In this document: positions 1 through 19,728 of the stretch, piece after piece
Layout of the letters: each line of letters opens with the position of its first letter
Position numbering within the stretch: the stretch's first letter is position 1
Virus record (IMG/VR): IMGVR_UViG_3300036981_000146
Location: 1 to 23,416 of that record
From: a virus
Reading direction: 5' to 3' (one strand)
Length of the DNA stretch: 23,416 bases
The notes under the pieces: model-generated
Seen by the model: the letters and a program-made list of their open reading frames with translations, nothing else
Databases searched by the model: none
Told to the model about the DNA's origin: nothing
Position numbers and translations under genes: made by a program

Positions 1-3000
1 GTATAGTTCGCCGCCGCCGCTGTGATGTAGGTAGTGCTGATTTTACGGCCAAGGTCGTCATTTGTCGCGCCTATGGCCAGAGTTGCCAGAGTTGCTGTTC
101 CTGCGTTGCCAGTAGTGTTTGCGCCTATAAGTGCCGCTAAACGGTTTGTTGGAACCGTCCCACCTGTAAGCTGGCTGGCGTCCAGTGCAGTCAAATCTCC
201 ACCATTGCCCACAAACGAGTCTGCGGCCAAATCACCCCCAGCCATGTTCAGATTGCCGGACAGGTAAAGCGTGCCCGGAACATTTGTCAAAACAGACGTT
301 CCGATAATGATGCCTTTTGTGGCATCTACTTTTACCTGGTTCTTGAAATCGTTTGTCCCTGTCCAGTCGTTTGTGCCGGCCAATGGAGCATACGTCGTGC
401 TGATCTTCCGGGCGAGATTGTCGTTGGTCGCGCCTATGGCCAGAGTTGCCAAGGGAACCGTTCCTGTGAGTTGCGCCGCGTTCAACGATGCCGCTCCGGT
501 CAGCAAATTAGTAACCTGCCCACCAGTTGTGGCAGACCCGTCCGCATTGACCGGAACAGCGCCCGAGGCCGCCCCGCTAACCATCTTCAAGTTTGCGTCA
601 GACATGACCATCCTCGAAGCCGTCAGCGCCGCATTAGTTAAACTAGTAACTGCCACATTTCCCAAGACTACAGCAGCAGCATGGTTGTTGGTCAGAATCT
701 TGTCGTTGGCTAATGCCTGCATGGTCGCCCATGTCGTGCTCGGCGTCATGTCCACCCATTCCCAAGTCAGCGCCCCGCTCGCCACGGCTGGAATCTTGCT
801 CTGCTCCGGACCAGCCGCGAGCCGTGCCGGTGCCCAGAGGACGTTTGTCGCGTTAATTACGTAGGTTTGCGAGGCCAACCCGTTCGTAACCGGGCCGCCC
901 GTGGCGTTTGACGCCGCCACCGCAACCGTGCCTGTCGTCAAATTGGATGCGTTATGAGCCGCAAGATTCGTCCGCGCTGCTCCAGCGTTCGCCACGTCGC
1001 TCAAATTGTTGGTGCTGAATAGGTCGCCTCCACCCGCACCACCAGGCACCTCCCAAGTTCCGTCACCCTTCAGGAACTTCGATGCCGTAATCCCCGTCGC
1101 CGCCAGGGCTCCGACCGGGATATTCGTCAACCCCGCCCCACTGCCAACAATTCCATGCTTCACCGTTAAAGCGGCGTTGATGTCCAGTGTCTGGCTCGAT
1201 GATGCCGCGTTGAACACGCCATACATTAAGCTGTTCGTTTTCGCCGCAGCAAGCGATCCCCGGCTTATCGTATCGACGTAAAACTGTCCATTCTCCGTGG
1301 TGACATAATTGCCAGCGGTATAGCCGAGAGCCAGCCCGTAATCTCCTGTCGTCAAAGCCCCGAATGCTCCATACCCAAGCGCCGTGTCCGTAACGGCATC
1401 CCCGGCTAAGGTCATCGCCCCGTGCCCAATCGCGGTGTTTCCCGCCGTGGTTGTGACGTTTTGCAGATTTGCGGAACCAATCCCGATATTTCCCGCTCCA
1501 CTCGTAACCTGCCGCAGCGCCCCAACTCCCAGTCCGATGTTTCCATAACCAGACGTAAAAAGTCCTACCGCACCAGCCCCGCCGAACATCCAGTTCGCAT
1601 TCGTCTGCGGCCTGCTCAATGCCTCTCCGTCACCTCGTAAAATGCTGTCCGTTGTCAGGTTAGTCGCTATCAGCCTGCCGGTGACGCCCGAAGCCACAAC
1701 GGCTGATACTGCATCGTAAACCTGGGTCACGGCAGCCGCGGCGCTGTCCATCCGAATGGTCAACAGCCGTAAATCCTGCCCCGGCACCGCGCTGGTGATC
1801 GAGGCTGTAGCGTCCATCGATGCGAAGTTGGTCTTGTTCCAAATATCCCGCACGACGACCGTTCCAACAAAGCCGAAGCTCGCTGGCGAGAACACAATGT
1901 TGGTCGTCACAGCGTTGGTGTTCAACAGCGCAACCGCGAAGTAACGGCCAACCCCTTTCCCCAGTCGCTTGCCATAAATCCTCTTGTCCGAGCTGCTTGA
2001 AACAAGTTGCTGACACGTCTCCGCAAGCGGGTCTTGCAAAACCTCATAAACCTCGTCATTGAACATGAAAGGGTGGTACGACCAGTAATTGGAGTTGGCC
2101 AAGCTGAACGACGCGAACATCATCGGCGTGCTCAGCATCGCAACCATGCCCATTTGCGCCCGGAAAGAGCCGAGCGTAGCTCCGGCCATGCCGTTGTTGA
2201 TGATCGAGAACCCGTTGTATTGTCCCGGCTGACCCTGCCCGGCGTGCGCCATCACGTAATCAATCCGCTGCACCGTATTGCTGAATTGCCCAAGGATTTC
2301 TTGGATTTGAACACCGCCCGATCCATAGACTGCGTTCTCGTAAATATCGGCATAACCAGATTCAAGCGTGTGCGTGGTTCCAATCACATCGTAGATGATT
2401 GGCTTCTTGCCGAACCACAACGCGTTGGTCCTGAGCATGAGCGAGTCGTTATAGACGTTTGTGGTCATTGATCCACGCAGCCACGTGATGCCGGACGCCA
2501 GGTAGTTGGTGATCTCCGCAACCAGGTTGGTCGGACCGGCCAGCCCGTCATTGCCCACGCCGGCCGCGTTCGCGGGCTCCATGTAGATGCCAAGGTTGAC
2601 GCCGATTGCTTTACCGTAGTCCGCGAGCGTTTTCAGCGTGTAATCCGGGAACCTGGCAGGATCAAGTCTCAGCAGCCCGTTTGCTCCGCGATTCGTGTTC
2701 GCGCACTGCCACGCCTCGATAATGACCGTTGGCGAGTAAGGCATCTTGTTCGTGCTCAACATCGCCATAAAGTTCGTCACGTCGCCCTGGTTCAACGTGC
2801 CGGAATACATGTCCCACGCTATGGGCGGCACCGGATAGAGACCTTTTAGATAACCGCGATTCGAGGATAATGCGCTCGCAGAAGTAAGGAAATTCGACCC
2901 GCCGACCTGCGCCCCGACCGCCGCCGCCTTCATGTAACCGTTGGTTTGTGTCTGAACATACAGCTCCGTTGCCAGTCCGTTCGTGACGGTTCCTCCCGTA

Positions 3001-4226
3001 GCGCTCGCCGTGGTAGTCGCTGTTGCCGCATTACCGCTCACGCTGCCGATTATGGTTTGGCTGTAAGTGTTCACTCCGGTGAACGTCTGGTTTGCCGCCA
3101 GGTAAGCGTTTCCCGACCCCGCGCTTGCCCCAGACAGCGAGATGTGCGACTGGCTGTTCGTGCCGATATGGAACACGACATCAGACGCGTCTGGCGTTAC
3201 CTGCGCCACAACCTTGATCCTGCGCATGACATAAAACCCCGTCGCGTTTGTCGTTGAATAGCTCGGATTCGACACCGTCCACGAATAGAGATTCGTCACA
3301 CCTTCCGTGATGGCTTGAGCTTGGCTATCCCAATCTCCAAACCAGTTCGTTCCGTCATACGAGACATAAATCTCAGGTTTTACCGTAGGGCCCACCGTTC
3401 CCGACCCGGTCAGGCTCTCCAAATAGGCGTTCACCGTCACGCCGGAGTTGAGTTGCAGTAATTTGTTGGTGGTCGTAACGCTGCCAATATACGTGCCGTT
3501 GGCCGGTTCGGTGTATGTCCTGGAGCCGATGTATGCCGGGATCGCTGTGCTGAATGAATATACGACTTGCGCCGTGTCGTTGTTCGTGAATCCAACAGCT
3601 ATGTTCGTTGTCGCATAGTAGCTCACGCCCGAGCCATCGAACAACCCCCGCACCCAGCCCGCTGTTGCCAGCTCGTTGTTGGCCGGAGCGTTGGTGGTTA
3701 CGGATAGGCTAAAGACAGAGCCGTAGAACGATCCACCATTTGTGGTAATGACGGTCGATGTGTCGATGCCGTTGGTTCTGACAACAATCCCGCCCGCTGT
3801 GATTCCCCAGTCGGTTAGCATCCCGTAGCCTGGAGCAAATGCCAGCCCGGAGGCGTTGTAGGGATTTATCTGCGATGCGGCCCAGTTGGTGTAGATGTAG
3901 AATGGAACGTTGGTCAAGTTGGCACCATTGCCGTAGAATCCCGCCACGGAGTTGTTTGTTAGTCCTGACGAGAGCGTGCCTCCAGACAGGGGAAGATAGT
4001 AAGTCGAGACGTATCCAGTGCCAGCAATCCCTGACAGAATCAGGTTGGTCAGCACAGAGAACGACGAGTAGTATCCCTGCACGCCAGGATTCTCCCACGG
4101 CATCCGGTAGGTATCAGGAATGGCGGCGAGCGCTCCGCCTGGAGCATTGGCAATCGTGGCATCGGCGGCGTTGGATCGCAGCGCAAGGAAGAATAGAGTC
4201 GTCGCTATCAGTAGTAGTTTTTTCAT
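1..4226 (-). CDS. Giant exported fibre-like protein with embedded GH27-like domain (3' end beyond the window)
   Basis: One reading frame stays open from the ATG at 4226 to the left edge (1408 full codons, no stop), so the C-terminus is missing. It begins with a clear Sec signal peptide: Lys2-Lys3, a hydrophobic run at residues 4-16, and a likely cleavage near Ala20/Ala21. Thr/Asn/Gly-rich fibre-type sequence follows, with repeated F-x-GNG-x2-LT motifs (near residues 80, 1020 and 1340), two copies of an ATGG-x-VTNGLA motif (near 405 and 1090), and an [13 protein letters not shown] motif like those in phage tail-fibre repeats. Residues about 465-825 resemble a complete GH27 alpha-galactosidase, and about 890-980 contain YadA-head-like GN-x-AIG repeats. 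The start overlaps the stop of the collagen-like gene as ATGA. The likely role is a receptor- or glycan-binding appendage. The signal peptide is unusual for a virion fibre, so a host-surface or secreted adhesin is the alternative. Confidence 0.85.
34..451 (-). repeat. Direct repeat pair near the C-terminal part of the fibre-like gene
   Basis: Positions 34-88 and 397-451 repeat each other with an offset of 363 bp (121 codons, in frame). Positions 64-88 and 427-451 are identical over 25 bp. Both encode [10 protein letters not shown]-x-L-x-RKISTTY. The repeat shows that the fibre shaft grew by in-frame duplication of a roughly 120-residue unit, and it could mediate unequal recombination. Confidence 0.8.
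1290..1550 (-). repeat. YadA-head-like GN-x-x-IG protein repeats
   Basis: About residues 893-979 of the fibre-like protein contain degenerate repeats of about 14 residues: [49 protein letters not shown]. This pattern is known from the left-handed beta-roll head of trimeric autotransporter adhesins and from phage tail fibres. It suggests the protein is trimeric here. Confidence 0.6.
1752..2849 (-). other. GH27 (alpha-galactosidase)-like domain with degenerate active site
   Basis: Domain inside the fibre-like protein, about residues 460-825. It opens with [11 protein letters not shown], as GH27 proteins open with PPMGWNSW. Then come VIIEAWQ (family: IDDGWQ), [19 protein letters not shown] followed by [10 protein letters not shown] (family: FPxGMKxLADYxHxKGLKxGIY), [10 protein letters not shown], and [17 protein letters not shown] (family: WAMMxAPLLxGND). 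A C-terminal sandwich follows, with [25 protein letters not shown] and LRLLTI in the usual order. The segment aligned with the nucleophile motif YLKYDNC reads WLRGSMT (582-588), and the segment aligned with WNDPDML reads YNGFSII (670-676). The catalytic Asp therefore appears absent, which suggests a binding module, not an enzyme. The alignment was made by eye. Confidence 0.65.
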
Positions 4227-4774
4227 GGGAGTAGAATAGTTCCACCGCTTGGCCACAGGATGTATCCTCCACCAGGCCAGATCCAGGATGGGCCGTGAGC
4301 AGGTGGAACTATGATTCCTATGGCAATCAGCAGTCCGTTGGAGAAGTTGAGCGTATTAGTTAATCCGGTGTCGGCAAAGATTACAGGGAAATTGGTGGTC
4401 AGCCCTATCGTCACGTTGGTTCCCGATGGTCCGGGAGGACCTTGTGGGCCAGTCGCGCCGTTGGTGCCATTGATGCCGTTCGTTCCGTTCAATCCTGGGA
4501 TGCCTTGGATTCCTTGAATGCCCTGAATTCCCTGAATGCCTTGCGGGCCAGGAGGCCCAGGCGGTCCTGGCGGGCCTATTCCTCCAAACGCATTGATGAC
4601 TACTCGGTTGTTGGTGTAGGTGAAAAGGACGTTAGTTCCAGGAAGCATGAAGTATGCCTGGGCCTGCTTGGCGTCTGGCTTAGGTTGCCAACCCTGGAAC
4701 CAATAGCTGACGTTCTGCGCTTGAATGGCGCAGGACGCCAGCATTAGAAACACGGTGACGAGAAACCGATTCAT
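4223..4774 (-). CDS. Exported collagen-like protein
   Basis: 183 aa. A hydrophobic leader at residues 1-19 carries a possible lipobox Leu12-Ala13-Ser14-Cys15; cleavage by signal peptidase I after AIQA is the alternative. Residues 64-117 form 18 uninterrupted G-X-Y triplets (GPP, then a GIQ run, then GTN/GIN), a collagen triple-helix sequence that would drive trimerisation. The C-terminal about 65 residues are Gly/Pro/Trp-rich with a hydrophobic stretch and probably form a globular or trimer-capping part. Collagen-like segments are common in phage tail fibres, but an N-terminal export signal on one is not. Its start overlaps the upstream stop as ATGA and its stop overlaps the giant fibre gene as ATGA, so the two are probably made together. 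It could be a stalk or adaptor for the giant fibre-like protein. Confidence 0.8.
4424..4585 (-). repeat. Collagen G-X-Y coding repeats
   Basis: A run of 18 in-frame Gly-X-Y codon triplets. Its core is a near-perfect 9-bp tandem unit encoding Gly-Ile-Gln. The repetitive DNA may contract or expand between isolates. Confidence 0.8.
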
Positions 4775-6423: not shown

Positions 6424-6653
6424 TAGGCGCTAGAGGCTATAGAGCACAGCAGATAGGCAATCACCGCGTCCCGGCTCTTTTGATCGGGAAAGCAGTAGCA
6501 GGCCGCCGCCTTTGCCAGTTCCGCTGGCGTTGCCGTGTTTTCGGCAATCTGCGCCAGAAGGTAAATCAGGATCGCATCACTGTCCTGTTTTCGGGGAAAA
6601 CAATAGCACGCGCTCGCCCGTGCGAGATCGCTCGGATCGCATGAAACAGCCAT
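6423..6653 (-). CDS. Small protein of two Cys-X-Cys helical modules
   Basis: 76 aa made almost entirely of two copies of a module of about 37 residues: CDPSDLARASACYCF up to ILIYLLAQI, and TPAELAKAAACYCF up to VIAYLLCSI. Each has a polar helix, a Cys-Tyr-Cys turn and a hydrophobic helix ending in Y-L-L. No signal peptide or known enzyme motif is visible. Its stop is shared with the GTG start of the FN3 gene, and a GC-rich hairpin lies just upstream of its ATG. The start has no clear Shine-Dalgarno. It is probably a small structural or assembly protein; the family is not one I recognise. Confidence 0.7.
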   Translation of the reverse strand: MAVSCDPSDLARASACYCFPRKQDSDAILIYLLAQIAENTATPAELAKAAACYCFPDQKSRDAVIAYLLCSIASSA

Positions 6654-6665
6654 AGGTTAAAGGGT

Positions 6666-6701
6666 GCCGGGACACCCAGCCACCAGCCTGAATGTCCCGG
6701 C
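6666..6701 (-). terminator. GC-rich hairpin between two Cys-module genes
   Basis: A perfect 9-bp inverted repeat (GCCGGGACA at 6666-6674, TGTCCCGGC at 6693-6701) with an 18-nt loop fills most of the 56-bp gap between the genes ending at 6710 and starting at 6653. On the minus strand it is followed by only a short T stretch (CCCTTT), so it may be a weak intrinsic terminator, an attenuator or an RNA-processing stem that sets the level of the downstream genes. Confidence 0.45.
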
Positions 6702-6709
6702 GTTGGGGG

Positions 6710-7051
6710 TTAATCGCTGACCCACGCCTCGAAGTCGTGGCATAGCAGCCACATGATGGCCGCAAGCAATTGCTTCTCGCTCGCGCATTCCAGGCACCGG
6801 ATAGAATCGATGATCTCGGGAACGGTCTGCCGATCCAGAAGCCCTTGGCCCATGATGGAAACCAACCCGACGAGGAGTTGCTTCTTGCTCATGCAAGTAA
6901 AGCAGGCCGAGCTTTTCATCACGTCCGTTACCGCGTGCTCCTCCGCTGCCGCGAATATGCCGACCAAAGCCGACAGAAGTTCCTTTTCTGACAGGCAGGG
7001 CAGGCAGGGATTCAGTTTCAACAGTTCCGATGGTGTGCAGGTAAATGCCAT
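6710..7051 (-). CDS. Protein of three Cys-X2-Cys helical modules
   Basis: 113 aa with three tandem copies of the same module: CLPCLSEKELLSALVGIF, CFTCMSKKQLLVGLVSIM and CLECASEKQLLAAIMWLL, each preceded by a short polar helix. It has no leader peptide and the C-terminus is acidic (DFEAWVSD). A strong ribosome-binding site, GGAAGGAG, lies 7 bp before the ATG, in contrast to its neighbours. It lies between the capsid region and the FN3 gene, so a virion-associated role is likely. The Cys pairs could bind metal or form disulfides, but in a cytoplasmic assembly context metal binding seems easier. Family not recognised. Confidence 0.75.
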   Translation of the reverse strand: MAFTCTPSELLKLNPCLPCLSEKELLSALVGIFAAAEEHAVTDVMKSSACFTCMSKKQLLVGLVSIMGQGLLDRQTVPEIIDSIRCLECASEKQLLAAIMWLLCHDFEAWVSD

Positions 7052-7467: not shown

Positions 7468-9084
7468 TTACGGCGTGTCCTTCCAGGGAATCTCGATGCT
7501 GGAGCAGCTTGCGCCAGTCAGCGTGATGCTCGGGTTCGCATCGGTCCAAACGCCCATGGCGCTCAGCTTGGCGTTCAGTTCGACCACCAGCAGCGCAATC
7601 GTGGTGCTGCCCGAGATAGCCGGATGAACGATCCCCATGCCGTTGCACTTGATGCTGTTCGCGGCGACCTGATAATTCGCAGTCCCGCCTGTGTGCGTGT
7701 TGATGATCGGCACTTGGCTGATGACGTAAGCCGACGCATTCGTCGAGCACACATCGTTCGCGCTTTCGTAGTGCTGATACGGGTACGGGCTCGGATACGG
7801 CGTGCAGGTCGGCAGATCGACGATGCAGGCCGGTTCGCGCAGACTGATGAACACTTCGGCCAACTCGGGATACTCGGCCTTGATGGCTCCGCCGAAGGTC
7901 GTGCGGAATTTGCCCTTGTTCCGAAGCTCGTTGTTGACCGCAATCGGCACCTCGATGTTGGTCCCGGTCAGTTGATCGGCCACCTGCATCGTGCCGCAGG
8001 TCAGATTGTCCATCACGAACTGCCACTTGCCGGCGAAATCCCGGGCCGCAAACGGCATCTCAGGGTTGATCGCCTTGGCGTCCCGGACCAGCGACGTCAT
8101 CGCTTTCCGATGCCAAATGAAGTCCGCCTGGACCCCGGCGTTGTCGTAGTCGGCATTGACATCTTCCTTGATGCCTTCCGTTGCCGCGATGTTCGTGTAC
8201 GGATACACCACGTTCAGAACCACCTGGGCCGCCGTGGCCGAGACGATGTTGAACCGCAGCGAAAACGCATCCGAACGGAGCCCGAAATTGCCAACGCTCC
8301 CGGTCCAGCCGTACTTGTAGTACTTGGCCGCATCCGTGAAACTCTGGAAACGCCAGTGATCCGTCAGGTTCGTGTCGCCCTCAACCAACCCCCACACGGT
8401 ATCCATGTTCGTGACCAGTTCCAGCATCGGCTGCATGTTCTTGTTGATCGTTGGCCCTTCCGCGCCAGCCCGGATCTGCGGGTCAACGCGCCGTTGGAGG
8501 TGGCGCGCGGTGAGCTTGCTGGTCGGAATCACCGACTGGCCAGCCGTTACCGGCGTCAGGGTCAGCATCGTCATGGCAGCGTTCCAGGTCGCATTCGCCG
8601 CGGTCATGCCGTTGCCACTCAGCACCCAGCGATATTTGGCGATCCGGAGAGCTTCTGTGCGGAACCGATAGGACCATACGATGGTCGAAATCCGGCGCAA
8701 AACCCGGACGAAATGAGCGAATTGCTGCGTAGCCCGATCTGCGCTGAGAATCTGGTCCCAGCAGAAGATGTCGGTCGCGTAATCCGTCTGTTGGAGCCGG
8801 TAGCTGTCCCGGGTGAACCCCAGGCCAACCTTGGTGACAGCGGGATCGCACGGAGCCCCGACGCAGGAGGCATTCTGGATGTCGTTCCAGGCCCCAAGCT
8901 TCGGGAACACGTTCTCGAACCGGTCGAAGGTGTGTTCGATGCCATCCTCGGCAGCAAAGCGCCCTGTGGACACGTGGCCGACCCATTGCGAGTCGAGCGG
9001 GTGCATGGAAAGGATGATGTTGTCATCCAGGTGTTCAGTCTTTTTTGCGATGTAACTTGCGAACGCGGAACATGAAATAGCCAT
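7468..9084 (-). CDS. Probable major capsid protein
   Basis: 538 aa, no leader peptide and no enzyme motif. The call rests on size, position (after portal, scaffold-like and GroES-like genes, behind its own 205-bp leader) and a mixed alpha/beta composition typical of HK97-fold capsid proteins. A long charged helix region lies near residues 120-160 (FAHFVRVLRRISTIVWSYRFR), and beta-rich segments alternate from about 240 onward. Residues 340-357 (NPEMPFAARDFAGKWQFV) recur in the 77-aa gene at 11481-11714. The C-terminal third is Cys-rich and ends in IEIPWKDTP. Strong expression is expected from the isolated leader in front and the hairpin behind. An abundant tail or vertex protein is the alternative. 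Confidence 0.75.
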   Translation of the reverse strand: MAISCSAFASYIAKKTEHLDDNIILSMHPLDSQWVGHVSTGRFAAEDGIEHTFDRFENVFPKLGAWNDIQNASCVGAPCDPAVTKVGLGFTRDSYRLQQTDYATDIFCWDQILSADRATQQFAHFVRVLRRISTIVWSYRFRTEALRIAKYRWVLSGNGMTAANATWNAAMTMLTLTPVTAGQSVIPTSKLTARHLQRRVDPQIRAGAEGPTINKNMQPMLELVTNMDTVWGLVEGDTNLTDHWRFQSFTDAAKYYKYGWTGSVGNFGLRSDAFSLRFNIVSATAAQVVLNVVYPYTNIAATEGIKEDVNADYDNAGVQADFIWHRKAMTSLVRDAKAINPEMPFAARDFAGKWQFVMDNLTCGTMQVADQLTGTNIEVPIAVNNELRNKGKFRTTFGGAIKAEYPELAEVFISLREPACIVDLPTCTPYPSPYPYQHYESANDVCSTNASAYVISQVPIINTHTGGTANYQVAANSIKCNGMGIVHPAISGSTTIALLVVELNAKLSAMGVWTDANPSITLTGASCSSIEIPWKDTP

Positions 9085-9289: not shown

Positions 9290-9622
9290 TTATGGCAGCA
9301 CAGCCAGCACGTCCTCCGTTCGCAGCATTTTGAGTCTGCCCGAGGTTTCCCAGTTCATCGTGACGCCGGACCCTGGGCGGACCAGCACTCGAGCTCCCAT
9401 GCCGAATTCAGGCATGACCGCCAGCCCGTTCTTGAGCCGGGGCCAGGGACCGATCTCCACGACCTTGCCGGTGATGCCGCGAGGCTTGGACGGCATCTTG
9501 TCAGCCTGCTGGTGTTCCTCAGCCGACATGGTGCGCTCCGGGATGTGCAGGCCGGTGAGCGTGAGCTTTTCGGGCGCGTCCAGTTCGACGAGGACGTATC
9601 CGGTCAGGGGCGTGATGCGCAT
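9290..9622 (-). CDS. GroES-like co-chaperonin
   Basis: 110 aa from the ATG at 9622. The frame is open further upstream, but homology begins at MRITPLTGYVLVELD, the GroES N-terminus pattern (KIRPLxDRVLVK). LTGLHIPERT corresponds to the mobile loop that binds GroEL (GGIVL in E. coli). TGKVVEIGP, MGARVLVRPGSG and the C-terminal RTEDVLAVL match GKVVAVGxG, xGDxVLF and SESDILAIV. The protein should cap the host GroEL ring and help fold phage proteins. T4 gp31 sets the precedent, and the capsid gene lies immediately downstream. The start overlaps the upstream gene by 19 bp and has no clear ribosome-binding site, which suggests translational coupling. No GroEL gene is present. Confidence 0.85.
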   Translation of the reverse strand: MRITPLTGYVLVELDAPEKLTLTGLHIPERTMSAEEHQQADKMPSKPRGITGKVVEIGPWPRLKNGLAVMPEFGMGARVLVRPGSGVTMNWETSGRLKMLRTEDVLAVLP

Positions 9623-9894
9623 TGGGGAGGAGACTTTGAATCGACACGAAAGCTCAACTTCTGGACTGCCGAAGCCAGCGCGTGGAATGCCAAATCGAGA
9701 TGGTTTGCATCTGCGGCTTTGTGGGCCATTTCCAGCCAACATTGAACTGAATCCTTTTCCGGCTTGTCTTTCTCCTCCACACCATTCAAATGCCGTAGCG
9801 CCTCGCACAAACTCAAAATTGCCTGGTCTGGATGATTCTTCATCAGGCTGTTATGCGCCTCCTCAACCGCCAAATCGCACAAAATGCTTTTCAT
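9604..9894 (-). CDS. Small helical protein, unknown function
   Basis: 96 aa, predominantly alpha-helical: two helix pairs around EEAHNSLMKNHPDQAILSL and LEMAHKAADANHLDLAFHAL, which look like a degenerate TPR-type hairpin repeat. It lies 5 bp after the scaffold-like gene and overlaps the GroES-like gene by 19 bp, so it belongs to the head-assembly operon. A TPR-like adaptor in head assembly is possible, but no close family comes to mind. Confidence 0.65.
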   Translation of the reverse strand: MKSILCDLAVEEAHNSLMKNHPDQAILSLCEALRHLNGVEEKDKPEKDSVQCWLEMAHKAADANHLDLAFHALASAVQKLSFRVDSKSPPQCASRP

Positions 9895-11718: not shown

Positions 11719-11940
11719 TCACCAAAAACGCACGTCTCGCGGGTCCCGCTTGACGGGTTTCTTTTTCCCGGCCTTGCTCATCGCAATGGCAACCGCCTGC
11801 TTCTGCGGCCTGCCCTCGTGCATCAGCCTTGAAATGTTCGAGGATACGGCAGATTTCGACTTTCCCTTTTGGAGTGGCATAACGGTTATTGGGACAGTTT
11901 CGAGTTTCGGTTGAGGTCGCTTTTGAATCTCAATCATCAT
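11719..11940 (-). CDS. Small basic phage protein (PQKQAVAIA family)
   Basis: 73 aa, strongly basic. The core MPLQKGKSKSAVSSNISRLM, followed by EGRPQKQAVAIAMSKAGKKK, matches a widespread small phage/bacterial family of unknown function with the signature M-P-L-x-K-G-x-S, NI, and PQKQAVAIA; I recall it as a DUF (possibly DUF6496) but cannot confirm the number. Such genes often lie near portal and terminase genes. The start overlaps the portal stop as ATGA, and a second ATG follows at once. The basic charge would suit DNA or RNA binding, but that is a guess. Confidence 0.75.
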   Translation of the reverse strand: MMIEIQKRPQPKLETVPITVMPLQKGKSKSAVSSNISRLMHEGRPQKQAVAIAMSKAGKKKPVKRDPRDVRFW

Positions 11941-14240
11941 TCTTTGGGAGCTTGGGCGTCCGTTCCCGCCTCGGCAAGCCTTTTCAAGCGGTTGGCCATT
12001 AGATCGTGCCGAGTAATGGCCCCGGTGCGCTCGATCTGCGCCGTGGCTTGGAGGTCCTTCCGGGCTTCATCGGCCTGGAACTGCTTGTCCTTGTGCTGCT
12101 CCTTTAGCTGTGCCGTGGCCGTCAGCGTGTCGGCCTTCGCCTTGGACTGCATCATCATGGATTGTACCTTTGCCGCCGCTGCGGGGTCCTCCTGGGGCGC
12201 TGCGCCGTTGCCCTGGGCCTGCTTCTGCATCGATTGCTGCAACCGTTGCGCGAGCCCTTTGACGTGGTTCATTAGCTGGCCGAAGGCATCCTCATACTGC
12301 CGAACCTTCTCCTTTTCGTCAGGATTGCTGGCCATGATCGCCAGGAAGTCGCCGATATGCTTCCCGATATTCCCCAGGCCGGTCAACTCATCGGGCGTGG
12401 CCGTGTCGCCGCGCTCCAAGATTTTCTTGAGCATCAGCCCCATGTCCTTGAGCCATACCAGAACGTAATCCTCGAAAATGGCATCCTTGGGCGCTTCAAA
12501 CGGCAGCCCGCGTAACAGGCGCTCTGTCGCCAGTTGAGCCACGTTCGTTGAATTGCTGATCGGCGTCTTTTCGCCCAGTGGCGCAATTTGCTCTGCCAAA
12601 TCCGGCTGGTCGGTCGCCGCCTCGACGCTGAGATGGTCCACGATCCGCTGCCCGTCAGGCGGCAGGTTCCTACGGATTTCATTCAGGAAGCCCACGGTCG
12701 CCATTTGCATCGTCTTGTTGCCGCCGCCAATGACCTGCTCGGGCTCGATGTTCCACTTGTCCACGTCCAGCATTTCCTCCGGGATGCCATCCTGGAGGCA
12801 GCCCAGGCGGAATTCCCGCGCCATCGGGTCCGTGCTGTTCTTGATGCACAACCGACGAAACATCTCCCGATACTTGAACGTCTCGTAGATGTAGGCCATT
12901 TCCTGGATGCCGGATGCCAGGGATTGGCTGGAGTTGACTATGGCCATTGTCTCGGTCGCCGTGCGCCCGCCCTTTTGCGCGTTGTTGTCGTAAGCCTGGG
13001 TGTAGCTGGTCGAGCTTTGGCTCATCAGAAATTGGTTCCGCGCGAATCCCATCTCCAGCAATTGGGAATTCGGGGTGAACCTCTCCGCCGCGGTTAAGAA
13101 CTTGATCCCTTGCGGAATAATGCCCATGTGCTCGAAGTTTGCTTTCTTCAACCGAATCAAATCCTGGTTGCCCGCCGTCTGGAAAAACCACATCAACTGC
13201 TCGAACAGCGACTCGTTGAACTTGCAGTGCAGCCGATTCTGCAACTCGCAGACCCCCCAAAGCATCCAGCCCAAGCCCCGGATGCTATGGTATTTCACGG
13301 GCGCATACGGGGAGCAGTCGCCAAACTGGCAATGAATGATTTCGTCTGCGGTGTTGGCGTATTTCCGTTTCCCGCTGCTGTAGATGAAGCCTTCGCCGTT
13401 TCGGGAGTCCGGCCTCGCGCTGGTGATCTCCTGTCCGGCGTTCCAGTCCAGGATAATTCTTCGATACCAGCCGTTCCCATCTTCACAGCGGTTGTAGAAA
13501 TCCCAAACATCCACCGTGGGGACCGCGTCGCTTCCGTATAACCCCTTGTCTTGCTTCGCCAATTCTTCGATCCGCTCGGGCATGTACTGGAAGGCCAGGG
13601 AGTTCGGAGACTTCCTCAAGTCATCCTTCACGTAATCATAGGCCGACTGGACAACCTTCATATTCCAGCCCGGGTCAACCTTCGGCCCATGGGTCATGGC
13701 ATAAAGCTGCGTCAGGGTCCACTCCCGGAACACGGCGAAGCATTCGAGATTGTCGAAGTCGTCGATCTCGGTTTCGCTCGGTATCAGCAGGCTGCCGACC
13801 GGGATGGCGACCGGGATAACCGACCGGCGATCCTTCCAGTTGACCGGCCCGATGCCAAACAGCATCGTATTGGCCCCCGTATTCTTGACCTGCCCAACCA
13901 TCCGCCGATCCCGTTTCAATGGCCGGTTCGCGCGCGCGGTTGCAAAATGAGACCACTCCATCCGCTTGTGCCCAGGACCGCTATCTGGTTTCGCGGTGAA
14001 GAAGTACGACGGCTTCAAGTGTGCGTTGTTCCACTGCCGCCGCGCCATGGCCAGCAGGTTTGGGCCTGAAAGGTCGCTGATATTGATCTGGATGTTGTTC
14101 TCCTCAGCGGTCGCATCGTCGAAAGGAGGATTCCCGTTATACAAACGGAGAAGCGTGGTCCGATCTGCTGCTCGCGGCTGGTCCGCAAGTCTCATGTCCC
14201 AGCATTTCTCCTCAACCGCTGCTACTGTATCAAAGCGCAT
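11937..14240 (-). CDS. Portal protein
   Basis: 767 aa, the size of large podovirus-type portals (P22 gp1 is about 725). The N-terminal half is mixed alpha/beta with many Trp residues. Residues about 30-70 (RLYNGNPPF through LLAMARRQWNNAHLKPSYFF) resemble the start of the clip/wing region, and TATETMAIVNSSQSLASGIQEM near 440 resembles the stem/crown helix region. The C-terminal about 150 residues are coiled coil (MKQAQ-type and KEQHKDKQFQADEARKDLQATAQIER segments), as in long portals with a helical barrel. Portals form the dodecameric DNA gate at the head vertex and bind terminase. In most phages the portal gene follows the terminase gene directly, but here about 6 kb of accessory genes lies between them. 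Confidence 0.8.
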   Translation of the reverse strand: MRFDTVAAVEEKCWDMRLADQPRAADRTTLLRLYNGNPPFDDATAEENNIQINISDLSGPNLLAMARRQWNNAHLKPSYFFTAKPDSGPGHKRMEWSHFATARANRPLKRDRRMVGQVKNTGANTMLFGIGPVNWKDRRSVIPVAIPVGSLLIPSETEIDDFDNLECFAVFREWTLTQLYAMTHGPKVDPGWNMKVVQSAYDYVKDDLRKSPNSLAFQYMPERIEELAKQDKGLYGSDAVPTVDVWDFYNRCEDGNGWYRRIILDWNAGQEITSARPDSRNGEGFIYSSGKRKYANTADEIIHCQFGDCSPYAPVKYHSIRGLGWMLWGVCELQNRLHCKFNESLFEQLMWFFQTAGNQDLIRLKKANFEHMGIIPQGIKFLTAAERFTPNSQLLEMGFARNQFLMSQSSTSYTQAYDNNAQKGGRTATETMAIVNSSQSLASGIQEMAYIYETFKYREMFRRLCIKNSTDPMAREFRLGCLQDGIPEEMLDVDKWNIEPEQVIGGGNKTMQMATVGFLNEIRRNLPPDGQRIVDHLSVEAATDQPDLAEQIAPLGEKTPISNSTNVAQLATERLLRGLPFEAPKDAIFEDYVLVWLKDMGLMLKKILERGDTATPDELTGLGNIGKHIGDFLAIMASNPDEKEKVRQYEDAFGQLMNHVKGLAQRLQQSMQKQAQGNGAAPQEDPAAAAKVQSMMMQSKAKADTLTATAQLKEQHKDKQFQADEARKDLQATAQIERTGAITRHDLMANRLKRLAEAGTDAQAPKE

Positions 14241-14251
14241 AATGCGTGAAC

Positions 14252-14797
14252 TTACGTCTGTTTGGCAGAATCACAACGGGTATTTCTCCAACGGCTCCTA
14301 CGATTGTTTGCCTGCGCCTTGCGCGTAGCCCACACGCAATTGTCTGGCGAGTAATCTCCGTCGTTGTCCTTTCGCTCAATGGTGTATTTACGGGATGGTC
14401 TAGGCCCCATATCCCACGCAAACTTTGAGAAGGAGTGCAGCCACCTTGGGCAAACACGAATTCCCCTGCCTCCCCAATTCATCCATCCTTTCCGTTTCGG
14501 ATCATCACAGCGCCGCTTCATATTTTGCCAAACAACGTAGAGGGCCGACTGTTTTCCGTTGGCCGTACCACCGTGAATCAGCCTTGAAGCTCTTACCCTT
14601 TCTTCTCTAAGGCATCCACAAGATTCGGTATGCCCGTTTTTAAGGTGCCGACCAGCAACAACCGCCAAATTTGAACATCTACAGCGGCAACTCCAAAACA
14701 CAGTTGTATCATAATGCGGCGACCCGCTTCTGGAAATATGGTGAATCCCCAATACCTTTAACCGACCAAATCTTTTTCCGGAAAGCGATGCAATCAT
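14252..14797 (-). CDS. HNH homing-endonuclease-like protein 1
   Basis: 181 aa. The N-terminal zinc-ribbon-like part has [11 protein letters not shown], then CRCRCS and TESCGC, the usual opening of a large family of phage HNH proteins (GKxFGRLTV, SCGC). The C-terminal domain has [57 protein letters not shown] and NNRR, the conserved core of that family. Such genes are selfish: they cut cognate alleles that lack them and spread by repair. It lies between the sugar methyltransferase and portal genes with 11-35 bp gaps and looks more AT-rich than the portal gene. A paralogue is encoded at 19288-19728, so the two could have carried the cassette between them. Confidence 0.85.
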
Positions 14798-14832: not shown

Positions 14833-16047
14833 CTAAATTACTTCTATCTTTGGAACTGGGATGATGAACTTGACGCCTTTGGACCGCGCCAAGGCGAATT
14901 TTTCCAGGCACTCCCCCAAAAAGTTCCAGCAGAAGATTATCAGGTAGTCAGGTTCTTCTCGCAGAATCGCGCCCTCGTCCACGATGGGAATATCTGTCCC
15001 CGGGCTGACCGTCAGTTGTTTCTGCGGCGTGTTATCGGCAATGAAAGCGACGTCTTTCCGGGTGAACCCGCAAGCGTTGATCCAGACCGTTGACTTGGCG
15101 GATGCCCCGAGCGCGGCCACGCTCTTGCCCTGGGCTCGAAAGGCTTGAACGGTGTTGCGAAGGCGATCAATCTGCGCCCGGGCTTCGATGCCGAACGCTT
15201 TCCAATCCTCGACCGTGATGCTTTCTTTCCAGTCCAGAAGCGCCGTGGCTGATCCGACCTTGAGCATTATCAGGATGGCCCCGCCGTGAATTGGGTATCT
15301 GGTGATTTTGTGGATGTGCAAGCAGGAGTCCCTCAAAAGGTAGAACATCGAACCGATTGACAGAAACGACAGGTGTTCGTGATAGACTTGATCGAATTCG
15401 CAGTTCTTGAGCGTGTCACCGGCGTAAGGCACCTCGATGCAAATCAGCGTCTCTTTATGCGAGACCGCTTCCAGTCCTCGAATGAAATCTTTCCAGTCAT
15501 CGACATGACAGAAAACGTGACGCGCGATCACGATGTCCACTTGCGGCAGCATTCGAGCGAAATCTTCATTGAAGAAACCCGACTGCATCGACACCCCATT
15601 GGCCGATGCTGCTTCCGTCAGATTCTCGGCCGGATCAACGCCTTGGACGGTGTAACCTTTCTTCTGCATCATGGCCAGCAGGCGACCATCGTTGCTGCCG
15701 ATCTCCAGAACGGAGTTGCCATCCGTCTCAGACTGGATATTGGCGATGAGCTTCTCGAAGTGCGCCTCCATCGTGGCCGAGGGGCTCGTCACGTAGGAAT
15801 AGTTCCGGTATAGGACTTCCGGGCTCACCACCACGCTCAACTGGGCCAGCGTGCAGCGCGGGCAGAACATCACCTTGAGCGGGGCGTACCCGGCCCGCTC
15901 CTCGCCCTCCCTCCGGAAGTCGTTAGCGAGAGGCTGGACCCCGAGGTCCAGGACTTCGATCAGTTTATCCGTTTGGACGGCCTTGATGCCTTGGGCTCCA
16001 GCCGTGGCGTAGCCACAGGCGCGGCAGTAATTATGGAGTTGGTACAT
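14833..16047 (-). CDS. Sugar C-methyltransferase (TylC3/NovU/TcaB9 type)
   Basis: 404 aa, full length for the family. An N-terminal zinc-binding domain has Cys8-x2-Cys11 and Cys62-x2-Cys65 around VLDLGVQPLANDF. The SAM-binding Rossmann motif is VLEIGSNDG (113-121), with a CHVDDW motif at 180-185, the family active-site signature Tyr222-His-Glu-His225, and a C-terminal domain with ALGASAKS and ADNTPQKQ. Relatives add a methyl group to C-3 of a 4-keto-6-deoxy nucleotide sugar on the way to branched deoxysugars. The start overlaps the radical SAM gene by 17 bp. No nucleotide-sugar dehydratase is visible, so the phage probably takes a host 4-keto sugar as substrate. The protein appears catalytically intact. 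Confidence 0.88.
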   Translation of the reverse strand: MYQLHNYCRACGYATAGAQGIKAVQTDKLIEVLDLGVQPLANDFRREGEERAGYAPLKVMFCPRCTLAQLSVVVSPEVLYRNYSYVTSPSATMEAHFEKLIANIQSETDGNSVLEIGSNDGRLLAMMQKKGYTVQGVDPAENLTEAASANGVSMQSGFFNEDFARMLPQVDIVIARHVFCHVDDWKDFIRGLEAVSHKETLICIEVPYAGDTLKNCEFDQVYHEHLSFLSIGSMFYLLRDSCLHIHKITRYPIHGGAILIMLKVGSATALLDWKESITVEDWKAFGIEARAQIDRLRNTVQAFRAQGKSVAALGASAKSTVWINACGFTRKDVAFIADNTPQKQLTVSPGTDIPIVDEGAILREEPDYLIIFCWNFLGECLEKFALARSKGVKFIIPVPKIEVI

Positions 16048-17134
16048 TGTTCATCCCGTCCCATTTGTTGCAGTCAACTACATGATAGAAAAGGTTCAAA
16101 CGGAATCGCTGACATTCATCACAGAGGGGATGCCCTCGCCGTGCTTCGCTCATTTGGTCCTGAGTCATGTCCAGATATTTGCCCATCGTCAATCTCCGAT
16201 CATCGGTCCAGCAGCAGTGCTGCACTGATCCATCACAGCGGATTAGCGTGAAAACGTCAGCGATGATGCATACCGAAGGTATGGGGAAACGCTTGTAAAG
16301 CTGCCTGGCTTTAATCGGATGAAAGCGCAGGCGATCCATAGCTTTCTCATATTGAATCTTAGAAGCAGGCAAAGCCGTATTCAGGTCCAAGCCGTCTGCT
16401 GCGATGCGGTAGAGCGGCACGGTTTTACCATGCTTTCGCTCGATCTCACGAAGGCTTTGGATGGTGTTCTCCAAGCTGATCGTGCGTGCCCATGAAATCA
16501 TAAACAGAAAGCCGAGCGGCTTAACGAAGTCCTCCATCTGCTGCATTTCTTCTAAATTGTCGTTGTACATGTGATAGCTGACGGCAATTTGGACAGAGCC
16601 ATTCCAGCGATTACACGCATCTTTGAGACGATGCAGGTTGTCTTTGACCTTCTGAATATCACCCCCAATGTGAGTCTTTTCGTAAGTCGATTGCGTGAAT
16701 CCTGACACGCTGACGATGAATAAGTCCGGGGCCGCCTTTAGAAAATCCTCCAGCCGATTGAGGTGGTTCAAATTGCTAGACACTTCACAGCGCAGTCCCC
16801 GGCTTTTGATTGCAGTAACACATTCGGGCAGGTGGGGATGCAGGAAGGGTTCGGAATTGCAGTAGCCGCATACGATGGCACTCGGATTTTCAGACTTTAT
16901 CTTATCCAGAATCTTGCCCAACAGGTCCATGTCCATGATTCCCGGTTTATACTCGTAGCCCTCTCGGTTGCCAGCGTGGCACAGAGCGCACTTGAGATTA
17001 CAGTTGCTGTTGATCTCCAACACGTAGCGCCAGGATTTCGTGTCAAGCGCACTTGCGGGAATTGGCCCATCGGCCTCGATGTAGGGACGCTTGGAAAGGG
17101 CGTAAGCGGCTACTAATTCAGATGAGAGTGGCAT
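16031..17134 (-). CDS. Radical SAM enzyme with SPASM-like C-terminus
   Basis: 367 aa from the ATG at 17134; ATGs at 17152 and further upstream are possible but overlap the previous gene more. Cys45-x3-Cys49-x2-Cys52 (CNLKCALC) binds the 4Fe-4S cluster that cleaves SAM. GYCNSEPFLHPHL, ISVSGFTQSTYE-like and VSSNLNHL segments follow the radical SAM barrel pattern. A C-terminal Cys group (Cys near 289, CDGSVQHCCW, then LCDEC near 340) looks like a SPASM/Twitch auxiliary-cluster domain. Such enzymes modify peptides or sugars. Because the next gene is a deoxysugar methyltransferase and the previous three are glycosyltransferase-like, a sugar substrate seems more likely than a peptide, and no precursor-peptide gene was seen nearby. 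The SPASM call is less certain than the radical SAM call. Confidence 0.8.
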   Translation of the reverse strand: MPLSSELVAAYALSKRPYIEADGPIPASALDTKSWRYVLEINSNCNLKCALCHAGNREGYEYKPGIMDMDLLGKILDKIKSENPSAIVCGYCNSEPFLHPHLPECVTAIKSRGLRCEVSSNLNHLNRLEDFLKAAPDLFIVSVSGFTQSTYEKTHIGGDIQKVKDNLHRLKDACNRWNGSVQIAVSYHMYNDNLEEMQQMEDFVKPLGFLFMISWARTISLENTIQSLREIERKHGKTVPLYRIAADGLDLNTALPASKIQYEKAMDRLRFHPIKARQLYKRFPIPSVCIIADVFTLIRCDGSVQHCCWTDDRRLTMGKYLDMTQDQMSEARRGHPLCDECQRFRLNLFYHVVDCNKWDGMNNVPTP

Positions 17135-17139
17135 AGTAT

Positions 17140-17835
17140 TTATATTCTGCATGTGTCCATTTTTGAAGGGTTCCATAAAGGGCCATGATAGTCTTTCACT
17201 CGCGGAAGTCGAGGACCGTTTCCAATCCAAACCTCGCTCTCGTACCGGCTTTCAATCGAATCGATTCCTGAGAGCTTGATCCTGTCGCGTTCCATAATCG
17301 AAGGCAGGGTAGCAAGGAATGACGCCTTTGCCCACCAAAAATTGCCAGCCCAAATGGATTGGCCTGGAGGGGTTTGATCCCCAGTCATCCAATGCGATCC
17401 GACCGACTCCCATCCCGAATCCAAGTCTTGCACGCATGTTCGCCAGTTTTTTACAGCGTTCTTCATCATGCACTTTCTCCATGTTTCGGTGTAATCGTTT
17501 GGCGGATGAGTGGCTCCTTTGGAATGGAAATAGAGGACGTTCCAATCTACGTGGCCCGGAAGCCACTGCTCAATCATCCTTAGCGTGCGGCACTCGTTTT
17601 TGCACTGCAAACCGTGCAGCGTGATCTTTGCCTTGGGCGGGATAAGCAGGTTCGCAATCTGGCGACTCTCGACGCCCCCGTTGATTCCAACGTGAAATTC
17701 AGTTGCCGTGTTCAGCAGGCCGTTGCTCCTGATCTCGTTCATCTGATCTCGAATGATGGGGATCGATGGTTCCAGGAGGTTCTCCTCTGTGTCCTGAAAG
17801 AATAGGCAGTGATAGAAAATGGCAATCGGTTTCAT
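17140..17835 (-). CDS. Glycosyltransferase-like protein 3 (FHSKG type)
   Basis: 231 aa. The start at 17835 (MKPIAIFYHC) is chosen because it forms an ATGA overlap with the upstream stop; the frame is open for nine more codons. Key features: NVLYFHSKGATH (99-110), TETWRKCMMKNAVKNW (117-131) and WAGNFWWAKASFL (162-174). The pattern FHSKG, WR-x-x-M and GNFWWA recurs in uncharacterised glycosyltransferase-like proteins and echoes the HTKK motif of RgpF-like rhamnan synthesis proteins. It probably transfers a sugar in the cytoplasm, since no membrane segment is seen. It directly precedes the radical SAM gene by 5 bp. Activity and acceptor unknown. Confidence 0.7.
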   Translation of the reverse strand: MKPIAIFYHCLFFQDTEENLLEPSIPIIRDQMNEIRSNGLLNTATEFHVGINGGVESRQIANLLIPPKAKITLHGLQCKNECRTLRMIEQWLPGHVDWNVLYFHSKGATHPPNDYTETWRKCMMKNAVKNWRTCVQDLDSGWESVGSHWMTGDQTPPGQSIWAGNFWWAKASFLATLPSIMERDRIKLSGIDSIESRYESEVWIGNGPRLPRVKDYHGPLWNPSKMDTCRI

Positions 17836-18593
17836 GCGGCGACGTTCATTAGACACGGCCAACAGTTATCTCCGCTCCACGGCGAGCAGTACGCGAATGA
17901 ATTCTTCTTGCACATATTGGACTCGAAATAGGGTCGCTCGCACATTCGATCTCCTGCCAGCATATCGCGTTGCTGCCCTCTTGCGTATCCTTGCGGATCA
18001 GAATCCCAGTCTCTCCAGGTCAAATCTTTTGTGCGCGTGATCACCCAGGATTCAATCCCTTTAGACTTCAACCATTCCGTGAAACAATTTCGACCGTGCT
18101 CGAATGGGTGGCGCTGGTCCGGGCTCATTACCTGAGTCGGATAGCCGTTCATCAATTCCGGATTCATCCAGAATGCCGTGGTGCGAATATGCGGCCAGAC
18201 GTTCACCGATGGATTGCCCCGGTTCCCCATCGCGCCGTATTGCGCATTGCCATGATTCCTGAACGCTGAGGCCATCCTCAAGAGCCATCCGCCGCGCGTG
18301 AAAAAGGTGGAAGCGCCAAAGAATACCATCATGTCGCAAGGCGCGTTCCTGGCCGCGCATTGAAACGCGCCGATGTCGTAGCCCGAATTGTCGTGTTCGA
18401 TAAAACCGCAATTTTTCAAGGGAGAAAACAGGCATGTGATTTCGCTCGTAGCCCTGATTCCGTTCAGGACAATAACGGTTTCATGCTCGATCCCGGGCGG
18501 AAAATCGTGGTAGCATTTCAAAAACCGAAACAAATAGTTGTCGCAGTTAGCGCCAGACCCGGGGGCATAAACATAGACGACAACGACTTTCAT
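17832..18593 (-). CDS. Glycosyltransferase-like protein 2 (RgpF-like)
   Basis: 253 aa from the ATG at 18593, placed by its ATGA overlap with the preceding stop. A Rossmann-like N-terminus (MKVVVVYVYAPG) is followed by NSGYDIGAF (69-77), which resembles the N-x-GRDIGPF motif of RgpF/rhamnan-synthesis proteins. Then come CDMMVFFGASTFFTRGGW (86-103), a TTAFWMNPEL segment and a PFEHGRNCF motif. It aligns along its length with the next gene upstream, so the two are paralogues. The C-terminus is Cys/Trp-rich (SPWSGDNCWPCLM). It is likely a cytoplasmic glycosyltransferase acting on a phage- or host-derived glycan. Confidence 0.72.
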   Translation of the reverse strand: MKVVVVYVYAPGSGANCDNYLFRFLKCYHDFPPGIEHETVIVLNGIRATSEITCLFSPLKNCGFIEHDNSGYDIGAFQCAARNAPCDMMVFFGASTFFTRGGWLLRMASAFRNHGNAQYGAMGNRGNPSVNVWPHIRTTAFWMNPELMNGYPTQVMSPDQRHPFEHGRNCFTEWLKSKGIESWVITRTKDLTWRDWDSDPQGYARGQQRDMLAGDRMCERPYFESNMCKKNSFAYCSPWSGDNCWPCLMNVAA

Positions 18594-19303
18594 TTGTACG
18601 GAATGTCGATCAGCCTTGACCACTGGACTTTCCTTTTAGGCGTTTCGTGATGCCAGTTGTCTGTGTGCGAACACCACATCAGGCAATTGCTTTGATCGTC
18701 TCTCCACAGGATGTTCTTTGGACTGCGCCATTGGCGCGGCTCCCATTCTCCATCCCATGTCACCATCCGCACTGGCAATCCCCGGGCCTGTGCTCGTCTC
18801 CAGAGTGAGTTTGCGCCGTGCTCGAATTCATACCGTGTCTTTCTGTCCACAGCCAAATACGGGTAGGCCGCAATCAGTTTTGGGGTGGTGAAAAACGCAG
18901 TCGTGTTTAGGTGAGAGCGAACGAGATTGCTGCTGAATGGTCCGTACATTCCCGGGCCGTGCTGTTCCCAGGCGTCAACCAGCCGCTTGAGCCAGCCGGA
19001 CCTGTGAAAGTAGTTGGACTCGCCGAGACACAGCATCGCGTCGTAATCCGCGCACGGCCCCCGGGCTGCATCCTGATAAGCGCTCACGTCCCGGCCTGGA
19101 TCGTTCGCCCTTGGGTAGAACAGCGGATTAAGCGGAGCGAAGATCATCGCCAGTTCCGTGCTCAACGGCCCCCCGTTGCAAATCACCATCAAATCTGCAT
19201 CAGCCCCAGGCGGATACTCGTTGAACGTCGCTACGAACCGGCTGGCGTAGTCGGCGGTGATCGGGCCGAGGGTGACTGCGATATAGGCTATGCAGACGCG
19301 CAC
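18590..19303 (-). CDS. Glycosyltransferase-like protein 1 (RgpF-like)
   Basis: 237 aa from the GTG at 19303, chosen because it aligns with the N-terminus of its paralogue (MRVCIAYIAV against MKVVVVYVYA). An ATG at 19345 is the alternative but would overlap the HNH gene by 58 bp. NDPGRDVSAYQ (67-77) is a good RgpF-type N-x-GRD motif; DYDAMLCLGESNYFHRSGW (86-104), NTTAFFTTPKL and YEFEHGANS also match the paralogue. Tandem paralogues of this type usually add different sugars or act at successive steps. The 5' end is entangled with the HNH gene, so the original start may have been remodelled when that gene arrived. Confidence 0.7.
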   Translation of the reverse strand: MRVCIAYIAVTLGPITADYASRFVATFNEYPPGADADLMVICNGGPLSTELAMIFAPLNPLFYPRANDPGRDVSAYQDAARGPCADYDAMLCLGESNYFHRSGWLKRLVDAWEQHGPGMYGPFSSNLVRSHLNTTAFFTTPKLIAAYPYLAVDRKTRYEFEHGANSLWRRAQARGLPVRMVTWDGEWEPRQWRSPKNILWRDDQSNCLMWCSHTDNWHHETPKRKVQWSRLIDIPYK

Positions 19304-19728
19304 GGTTTTCGACCGAAGGTAGTGAGAGCTTTCTCCATCGTCCATCCCCTGGACAAGCGATTCAGTATCACAGAAGAATGAACTCCAAGCGTTTTAGCAA
19401 ACTCCGTGAGGGTGTACCTTTTCCCATTCCGCTCAATGTAGTGCATGTTCCGTCTGTTTTGATTCTGCTCAAACATCGTGGCCCATCGGCAGTTTCCTGG
19501 CTCATAGTTTCCGTTGCTTTCAATACGATCAAGCGTGTGCTTCTTGGTTGGCCTTGGTCCCATGTCTAAAGCAAATAATGGAAAACTGTCCCAACGTTCG
19601 CAGATCGTCACACCGCGTCCTCCATAATACTTGAATTTAGGATGCTTCGGATTATGACAACGATCTCTCATGTGATTCCATGCAGAATATGAGTCATGCC
19701 GAGTCCGTGTGCATCGGGGAAATGTCAT
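19288..19728 (-). CDS. HNH homing-endonuclease-like protein 2
   Basis: 146 aa. It has the same catalytic core as the protein at 14252-14797: SAWNHMRDRCHNP, YYGGRGVTICERW, FALDMGPRPTKKHTLDRIESNGNYEPGNCRWAT, QNRR. It lacks the N-terminal zinc ribbon but carries a C-terminal helix-turn-helix of the NUMOD kind (YTLTEFAKTLG, then ILNRLSRGWTMEKALTT), used for site recognition. Its start overlaps the upstream stop as ATGA and its end overlaps the glycosyltransferase gene, so it is spliced tightly into the operon. Probably a mobile selfish gene. Confidence 0.85.
   Translation of the reverse strand: MTFPRCTRTRHDSYSAWNHMRDRCHNPKHPKFKYYGGRGVTICERWDSFPLFALDMGPRPTKKHTLDRIESNGNYEPGNCRWATMFEQNQNRRNMHYIERNGKRYTLTEFAKTLGVHSSVILNRLSRGWTMEKALTTFGRKPCASA

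Follow-up and report, generated by a model that had tools for sequence, protein, structure and literature searches.

A GH27-type domain without the catalytic nucleophile in a phage fibre-like protein: a candidate pseudoglycosidase binding module

A phage known from metagenome sequence (IMG/VR virus record IMGVR_UViG_3300036981_000146) encodes, in the 23,416-nt stretch of DNA analyzed here (hereinafter, the window), a long fibre-like protein with an internal domain of the GH27 fold in which the catalytic nucleophile is replaced by serine and most of the galactose-contacting residues are lost. The best explanation, in which we place about even confidence, is that this domain is a GH27-derived pseudoglycosidase module for surface binding in an adsorption protein. 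A bacterial enzyme of the GH27 alpha-galactosidase type would have been built into a phage surface fibre, with a shaft-like region on either side of it; the barrel and the C-terminal sandwich would have been retained, and the nucleophile and most of the residues that contact galactose lost. In adsorption, the domain would then function as a binding module without catalysis, with the remodelled pocket or the barrel surface contacting a host-surface glycan or another host-surface polymer rather than a simple alpha-galactoside. Active glycosidases or lyases are common in the adsorption proteins of phages, and a natural case in which the whole fold persists without its nucleophile would illustrate how a protein can pass from cutting a sugar to holding it. 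The domain would also be a concrete object for testing whether such modules help to set the host range of uncultured phages.

The fibre-like protein (positions 3 to 4226 of the window, minus strand) consists of at least 1408 amino acids, is open at the contig end and starts with an ATG at 4226 that overlaps the stop codon of the preceding gene (ATGA). This directly upstream gene (4223-4774, minus strand) encodes a collagen-like protein of the tail-fibre type with its own signal peptide, and overlaps its own predecessor in the same manner. The predicted architecture of the fibre-like protein, with all parts on the minus strand, includes a 21-residue Sec-type signal peptide (4164-4226; recognized from the sequence and a heuristic, with the cleavage site placed by eye), an N-terminal shaft-like region with phrases such as GNGANLTNV and GNAATAT (residues 22 to 454; 2865-4163), the GH27-like (beta/alpha)8 barrel (residues ~463 to 735; 2022-2840), the GH27 C-terminal beta-sandwich (residues ~739 to 826; 1749-2012) and a C-terminal shaft-like region that runs off the contig end (residue 827 onward; 3-1748). 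The latter contains phrases of a 10-residue type along with phrases of 18 residues. Neither of the two regions flanking the GH27-like domain produced a PHROG, Pfam or PDB match, and accordingly, neither was assigned to a recognized fibre or anchor family.

Judging from the sequence matches, the GH27 identity of the phage domain is far beyond chance. Residues ~463 to 826 contain both GH27 Pfam domains, in the right order and above the curated cut-offs, namely Melibiase_2 (residues 492 to 705; E-value 1.5e-7, 31.4 bits with a cut-off of 23) and Melibiase_C (E-value 1.3e-6, 28.8 bits with a cut-off of 22.9). A phmmer search against the PDB aligned the domain end to end (residues 27 to 378 of the 386-residue query) with the Nicotiana alpha-galactosidase 6f4c (E-value 1.6e-8), and plasmid-borne GH27 proteins matched it with E-values of 2e-12 to 3e-12, covering 94% of the phage domain. 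The order of the Pfam domains and the full-length alignment with 6f4c agree with the original prediction, according to which the order of GH27 landmarks is preserved over about 360 residues, including the C-terminal sandwich.

The AlphaFold2 model of the domain (pLDDT 79.6, pTM 0.83) contains eight barrel strands and the C-terminal sandwich, but the input alignment held 32 bacterial GH27 sequences, so that the model is biased towards the GH27 fold and this evidence is partly circular; folded without an alignment, the phage domain gave no usable model (pLDDT 37). In a Foldseek search with the domain model, GH27 structures ranked first, and with a second structure aligner, the best PDB neighbours were all GH27 proteins (Z 30 to 40), with superposition on the human and rice alpha-galactosidases yielding Z values of 39 to 40, compared to ~23 for GH36. 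The GH27 claim is thus carried by the sequence matches, and the predicted structure agrees with them. The alpha-galactosidases and alpha-N-acetylgalactosaminidases of the GH27 family (human 1r46 and 3hg3, rice 1uas, Nicotiana 6f4c) share with the phage domain the same barrel and sandwich, with 17-20% identity over ~350 residues and Z of ~40. The phage domain differs from these enzymes in the presence of Ser586 and Glu643 at the aligned catalytic positions, in the loss of most of the galactose contacts and in its location within a fibre-like protein.

The nucleophile Asp of the retaining enzymes (D170 of human alpha-Gal A) is present in all 36 aligned bacterial GH27s, whereas the phage domain has Ser586 (codon at 2469-2471, minus strand) in every alignment made. 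This serine belongs to the motif WLRGSMT (residues 582 to 588, window positions 2463-2483, numbered from the ATG at 4226), which had been predicted to replace the nucleophile motif; the prediction holds, and the coordinates and the placement given for this motif and for YNGFSII (residues 670 to 676) are correct. A retaining reaction requires a nucleophile, and the normal GH27 reaction is not expected with Ser in its place. Because the most of the galactose-contacting residues are lost together with the nucleophile, no activity of the domain as a retaining GH27 glycosidase is expected. In the better alignments, the acid/base motif WRTTGDI aligns without gaps to GVQIQEI of the phage domain, so that the acid/base Asp (D231) becomes Glu643 (codon at 2298-2300, minus strand). 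This correspondence is likely rather than certain because an earlier alignment of ten sequences placed Gln647 at the acid/base position and because the model is weak around Glu643 (pLDDT ~56); the register is supported by the nearest relative of the domain, L029 (see below), which has GQDI at the same place.

With respect to substrate recognition, the motif WNDPDML, which holds D264 and D266 of human alpha-Gal A, is a substrate-contact motif, the acid/base residue being located in WRTTGDI instead; the galactose contacts are given in the numbering of the well-characterized human alpha-Gal A. The replacement of WNDPDML by YNGFSII (2199-2219, minus strand), with the loss of D264, D266 and M267, is real, but it affects substrate contacts and not, as the original pairing of motifs could imply, the acid/base residue. 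In the alignment with the 36 GH27s, the contacts D92, C142 and R227 are lost as well, the replacements including Ile503 for D92, Val639 for R227, Ser674 for D266 and Ile675 for M267. Two changes are conservative, namely D93 to Glu504 (codon at 2715-2717, minus strand, adjacent to Ile503) and K168 to Arg584; the W47 and Y134 positions are retained (W471 and Y548 in the phage domain), and the E203 position is variable within the GH27 family. Given this remodelling of the pocket, simple alpha-galactosides are unlikely as the ligand, and the suggestion that the domain recognizes host galactosides is not supported, with D92, C142, R227, D266 and M267 all replaced.

The phage domain retains 29 of the 78 columns that are near-invariant among the 36 bacterial GH27s, many of these being Gly, Pro or aromatic residues. 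Near-invariant columns of the active site are kept in 2 of 12 cases compared to 27 of 66 for the other columns, a difference that is not significant (Fisher p 0.19), and we therefore reject a concentration of changes in the active site in favor of general divergence. Thus, the fold is indeed kept and the active site lost, as had been noticed, but the contrast between the two was overstated. In the phylogenetic tree, the end branch of the phage domain amounts to 9.9 changes per site, compared to a median of 0.25; a branch of this length would equally be expected under relaxed constraint or if the domain were pure scaffolding. These features, along with the largely erased galactose pocket and the small number of conserved columns kept, would fit a dead GH27 fold that lacks a ligand of its own and functions as a structural spacer or knob, providing bulk, protease resistance or trimer packing. 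We consider such a role unlikely, albeit deserving of some weight: the charge of the pocket is kept at two acidic positions and one basic position (E504 and E643; R584), W471 and Y548 are retained, and a globular domain of 365 residues would be costly for mere spacing.

The interpretation of the domain as a binding module draws on the analogy with pseudoglycosidases and with the inactivated K1F endosialidase. Glycan-binding pseudoglycosidases have been described from animals and protozoa, and the endosialidase of phage K1F with a mutated active site still binds polysialic acid with nanomolar affinity (PMC7828330). Similarly to the phage domain, YKL-39, klotho and CyRPA possess a glycosidase fold without the catalytic residues that is reused for binding (PMC7828330); however, these proteins belong to other GH families, do not come from phages, and bind their ligands demonstrably, whereas binding by the phage domain is putative. 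K1F endosialidase, a phage tailspike enzyme, resembles the present case in that a glycosidase domain resides in an adsorption protein and that the inactivated form binds its glycan (PMC7828330), but natural K1F is active and has another fold, whereas here the loss is natural and the barrel is of the GH27 type. Phage tailspike glycosidases and binding pseudoglycosidases are both known kinds; the present domain, a GH27 fold that has naturally lost its nucleophile within a fibre-type protein of a phage, is a single case, with no other in the collections and literature searched.

The sequence nearest to the phage domain, by both tree path and E-value, is the GH27 protein L029 of Pseudokordiimonas caeni (E-value 7e-24, 27% identity), which shares with it the PGQ-[WY]N-x-F motif variant but, unlike the phage domain, retains all the catalytic Asp residues and is a cellular rather than a phage-encoded protein. 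The 80 genome loci examined were fetched with patterns that included active-site motifs, so that the selection itself accounts in part for their intact active sites. Another set of GH27s, free of this bias, was obtained by using the phage domain itself as the query against 388 Verrucomicrobiota genomes, and both catalytic Asp residues are kept in all 24 loci from this set. In these comparisons, the phage domain comes out as an exception and not as a member of a visible inactive branch of GH27, although such a branch may exist elsewhere in bacteria.

Neither the 2.9 million viral contigs nor the 50,697 phage records searched yielded another fibre with a GH27 domain. When the domain or the fibre flanks served as the query in single-protein scans, viral and genome contigs gave no relative, and tblastn searches of the 50,697 GenBank phage records with the flanks, the capsid protein and the portal protein found nothing resembling this phage. 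The 66 fetched loci that matched a DNA pattern for the strand-3 motif likewise included no GH27 from a viral contig. The viral structure library held a single close GH27 fold, the alpha-galactosidase of Tetraselmis virus 1 (BFVD A0A2P0VP48), which, however, is a stand-alone protein of an algal virus and not part of a phage fibre. None of the literature searched describes a GH27 domain within a phage fibre and, in the collections searched, GH27 folds appear to be very rare in phages. The lack of phage relatives both of the fibre and of this domain variant, which leaves no basis for measuring purifying selection on the domain, weighs against the binding interpretation. Two candidates were rejected. 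The sole match among the phage records, MT835685.1 (L002), listed in GenBank as 'Bacteriophage sp.', is probably mislabelled: it reads as part of a Bacteroides chromosome, in which SusC/SusD-type genes accompany a GH27 that is intact. In L028, an intact secreted GH27 enzyme (118-1728) is encoded at the edge of a prophage-like contig, not in a fibre, and is perhaps the product of a flanking host gene.

The fibre-like protein is encoded in a cluster of phage structural and lysis-type genes, in accord with the phage setting proposed originally. The minus strand of the window also carries the genes for the terminase large subunit (20400-22184), a presumed portal protein (11937-14240; so assigned from its size and position, and kept in 13 of the 16 related loci) and a presumed major capsid protein (7468-9084; so assigned from its position and conservation). 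Using the presumed capsid protein as the anchor, we identified 16 related viral contigs (34-69% identity), some or most of which have the presumed portal, scaffold-like and terminase genes in common with the window. Capsid, lysis-type and collagen-like genes all precede the fibre-like gene within a single series of coupled genes. The GH27 domain and the fibre flanks are found in none of the 16 related contigs, where the same slot is occupied by other large, variable proteins. In L014, these include a protein of 613 aa that weakly matches the YadA head and a right-handed beta-helix protein of 692 aa that weakly matches a GH141 domain; in L016, there is a protein with a weak LamG-like match. The locus would thus encode variable adsorption proteins, the modules of which can be exchanged. 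A search for the host by means of the capsid protein found nothing in Verrucomicrobiota, Acidobacteriota and Planctomycetota.

The designation of the protein as a fibre is likely but unproven: its gene comes after structural and lysis-type genes and the flanks of the domain are fibre-like, yet the protein starts with what the heuristic recognizes as a textbook Sec signal, which is unusual for a tail fibre. In a study of Bacteroides phages, the lack of signal peptides was taken as support for the phage origin of variable proteins (PMC6199706). Under a strict home-made rule, applied to the window and 15 relatives, some of them near-duplicates, signal peptides were predicted for 13 of the 82 genes located after the capsid gene and for none of the 112 genes up to and including it (p 8e-6, which is only a guide). 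Sec signals are present on large fibre-type proteins encoded after the capsid gene in the window (4164-4226 and from 4774 downwards, minus strand) and in the related loci L003, L010, L014 and L016. Either this phage group exports its fibre-type proteins prior to assembly or else they are secreted proteins, and the signal peptides raise the question of the route and the site at which proteins of this type would join the virion. Secretion would make the fibre-like protein a late protein that is released through the Sec pathway to the periplasm or outside, or displayed on the surface, as an adhesin, decoy or superinfection-exclusion factor. The clear signal peptides of this protein and of the preceding collagen-like protein, as well as the skewed distribution of signals around the capsid gene, are compatible with this possibility; nevertheless, we deem it quite unlikely, given that the signal-bearing proteins fill the expected tailspike or fibre slot, some of them with beta-helix or YadA-like matches, that the related loci are partly redundant and that the signal predictor is home-made.

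A switch of mechanism, with catalysis continuing on the fibre, would compete with the loss of catalysis that is implied by a binding module. Ser586 would leave room for water, Glu643 would be the acid, and Glu550, located where barrel strand 3 ends (codon at 2577-2579, minus strand), or Glu504, in strand 2, would be the base, as in inverting GH97; Glu550 is a candidate general base only under this scheme, from structure, alignment and the published data on GH97 (PMC2670981). The domain would then be a GH27-derived, nucleophile-less inverting glycosidase that arose independently of inverting GH97 and has as its substrate a glycan of the host surface that is not an alpha-galactoside. The inverting BtGH97a (SusB), which is structurally related to GH27, has Gly469 at the nucleophile position and Glu532 at the acid/base position (PMC2670981). 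The replacement of one Asp by a small residue and of the other by Glu in the phage domain resembles this pair; furthermore, GH97 aligns over the barrel with a GH27 profile that includes the phage domain. However, GH97 differs in having an extra N-terminal domain and a calcium site, and both sequence and Z values (~40 compared to ~22 for GH97) assign the phage domain to GH27. An inverting enzyme is, in our assessment, improbable: D92, R227, D266 and M267 have been replaced, Asp already occupies the Glu550 position in many active GH27s so that there is no clear gain, the equivalence of Glu550 with GH97 Glu439 in strand 3 is putative, and the model is weak around Glu643. Finally, it is highly improbable that the domain is a decaying passenger, that is, a captured enzyme gene degenerating without function, as might be thought from the lack of relatives and the very high divergence, considering that the frame spans 1408 codons without stops, its third-position GC (0.73) is near that of the terminase large subunit and portal genes (0.74-0.77), both domains are intact, and the domain is too diverged for a recent arrival and yet fold-compatible according to the model.

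Several other features of the window deserve mention. Between the terminase and portal genes (14836-20396, minus strand), there is a conserved gene set, the members of which are found in 3 to 9 of the 16 relatives, that encodes a C-methyltransferase of the sugar type (Methyltransf_13/23/14) along with a radical SAM protein and several unassigned proteins of 223-263 aa, and is possibly a modification cluster. Two small HNH-endonuclease-like proteins, which are alike by eye and have no Pfam match, are encoded on either side of this modification-type cluster (14255-14797 and 19291-19728, minus strand); because each is matched in only one of the 16 relatives, the respective genes may be mobile insertions. 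Adjoining the capsid gene is a gene for a GroES-like co-chaperonin (9293-9667, minus strand; Cpn10, E-value 7.5e-8). At 6426-7051 (minus strand), the window encodes small proteins that begin with a Cys-rich segment (SCxPxxLxxxxxCxxC type), and a similar start heads low-complexity proteins of 320-834 aa in L004, L005, L007, L008, L009, L011 and L013, on the strength of which this Cys-rich start may be a virion anchor.
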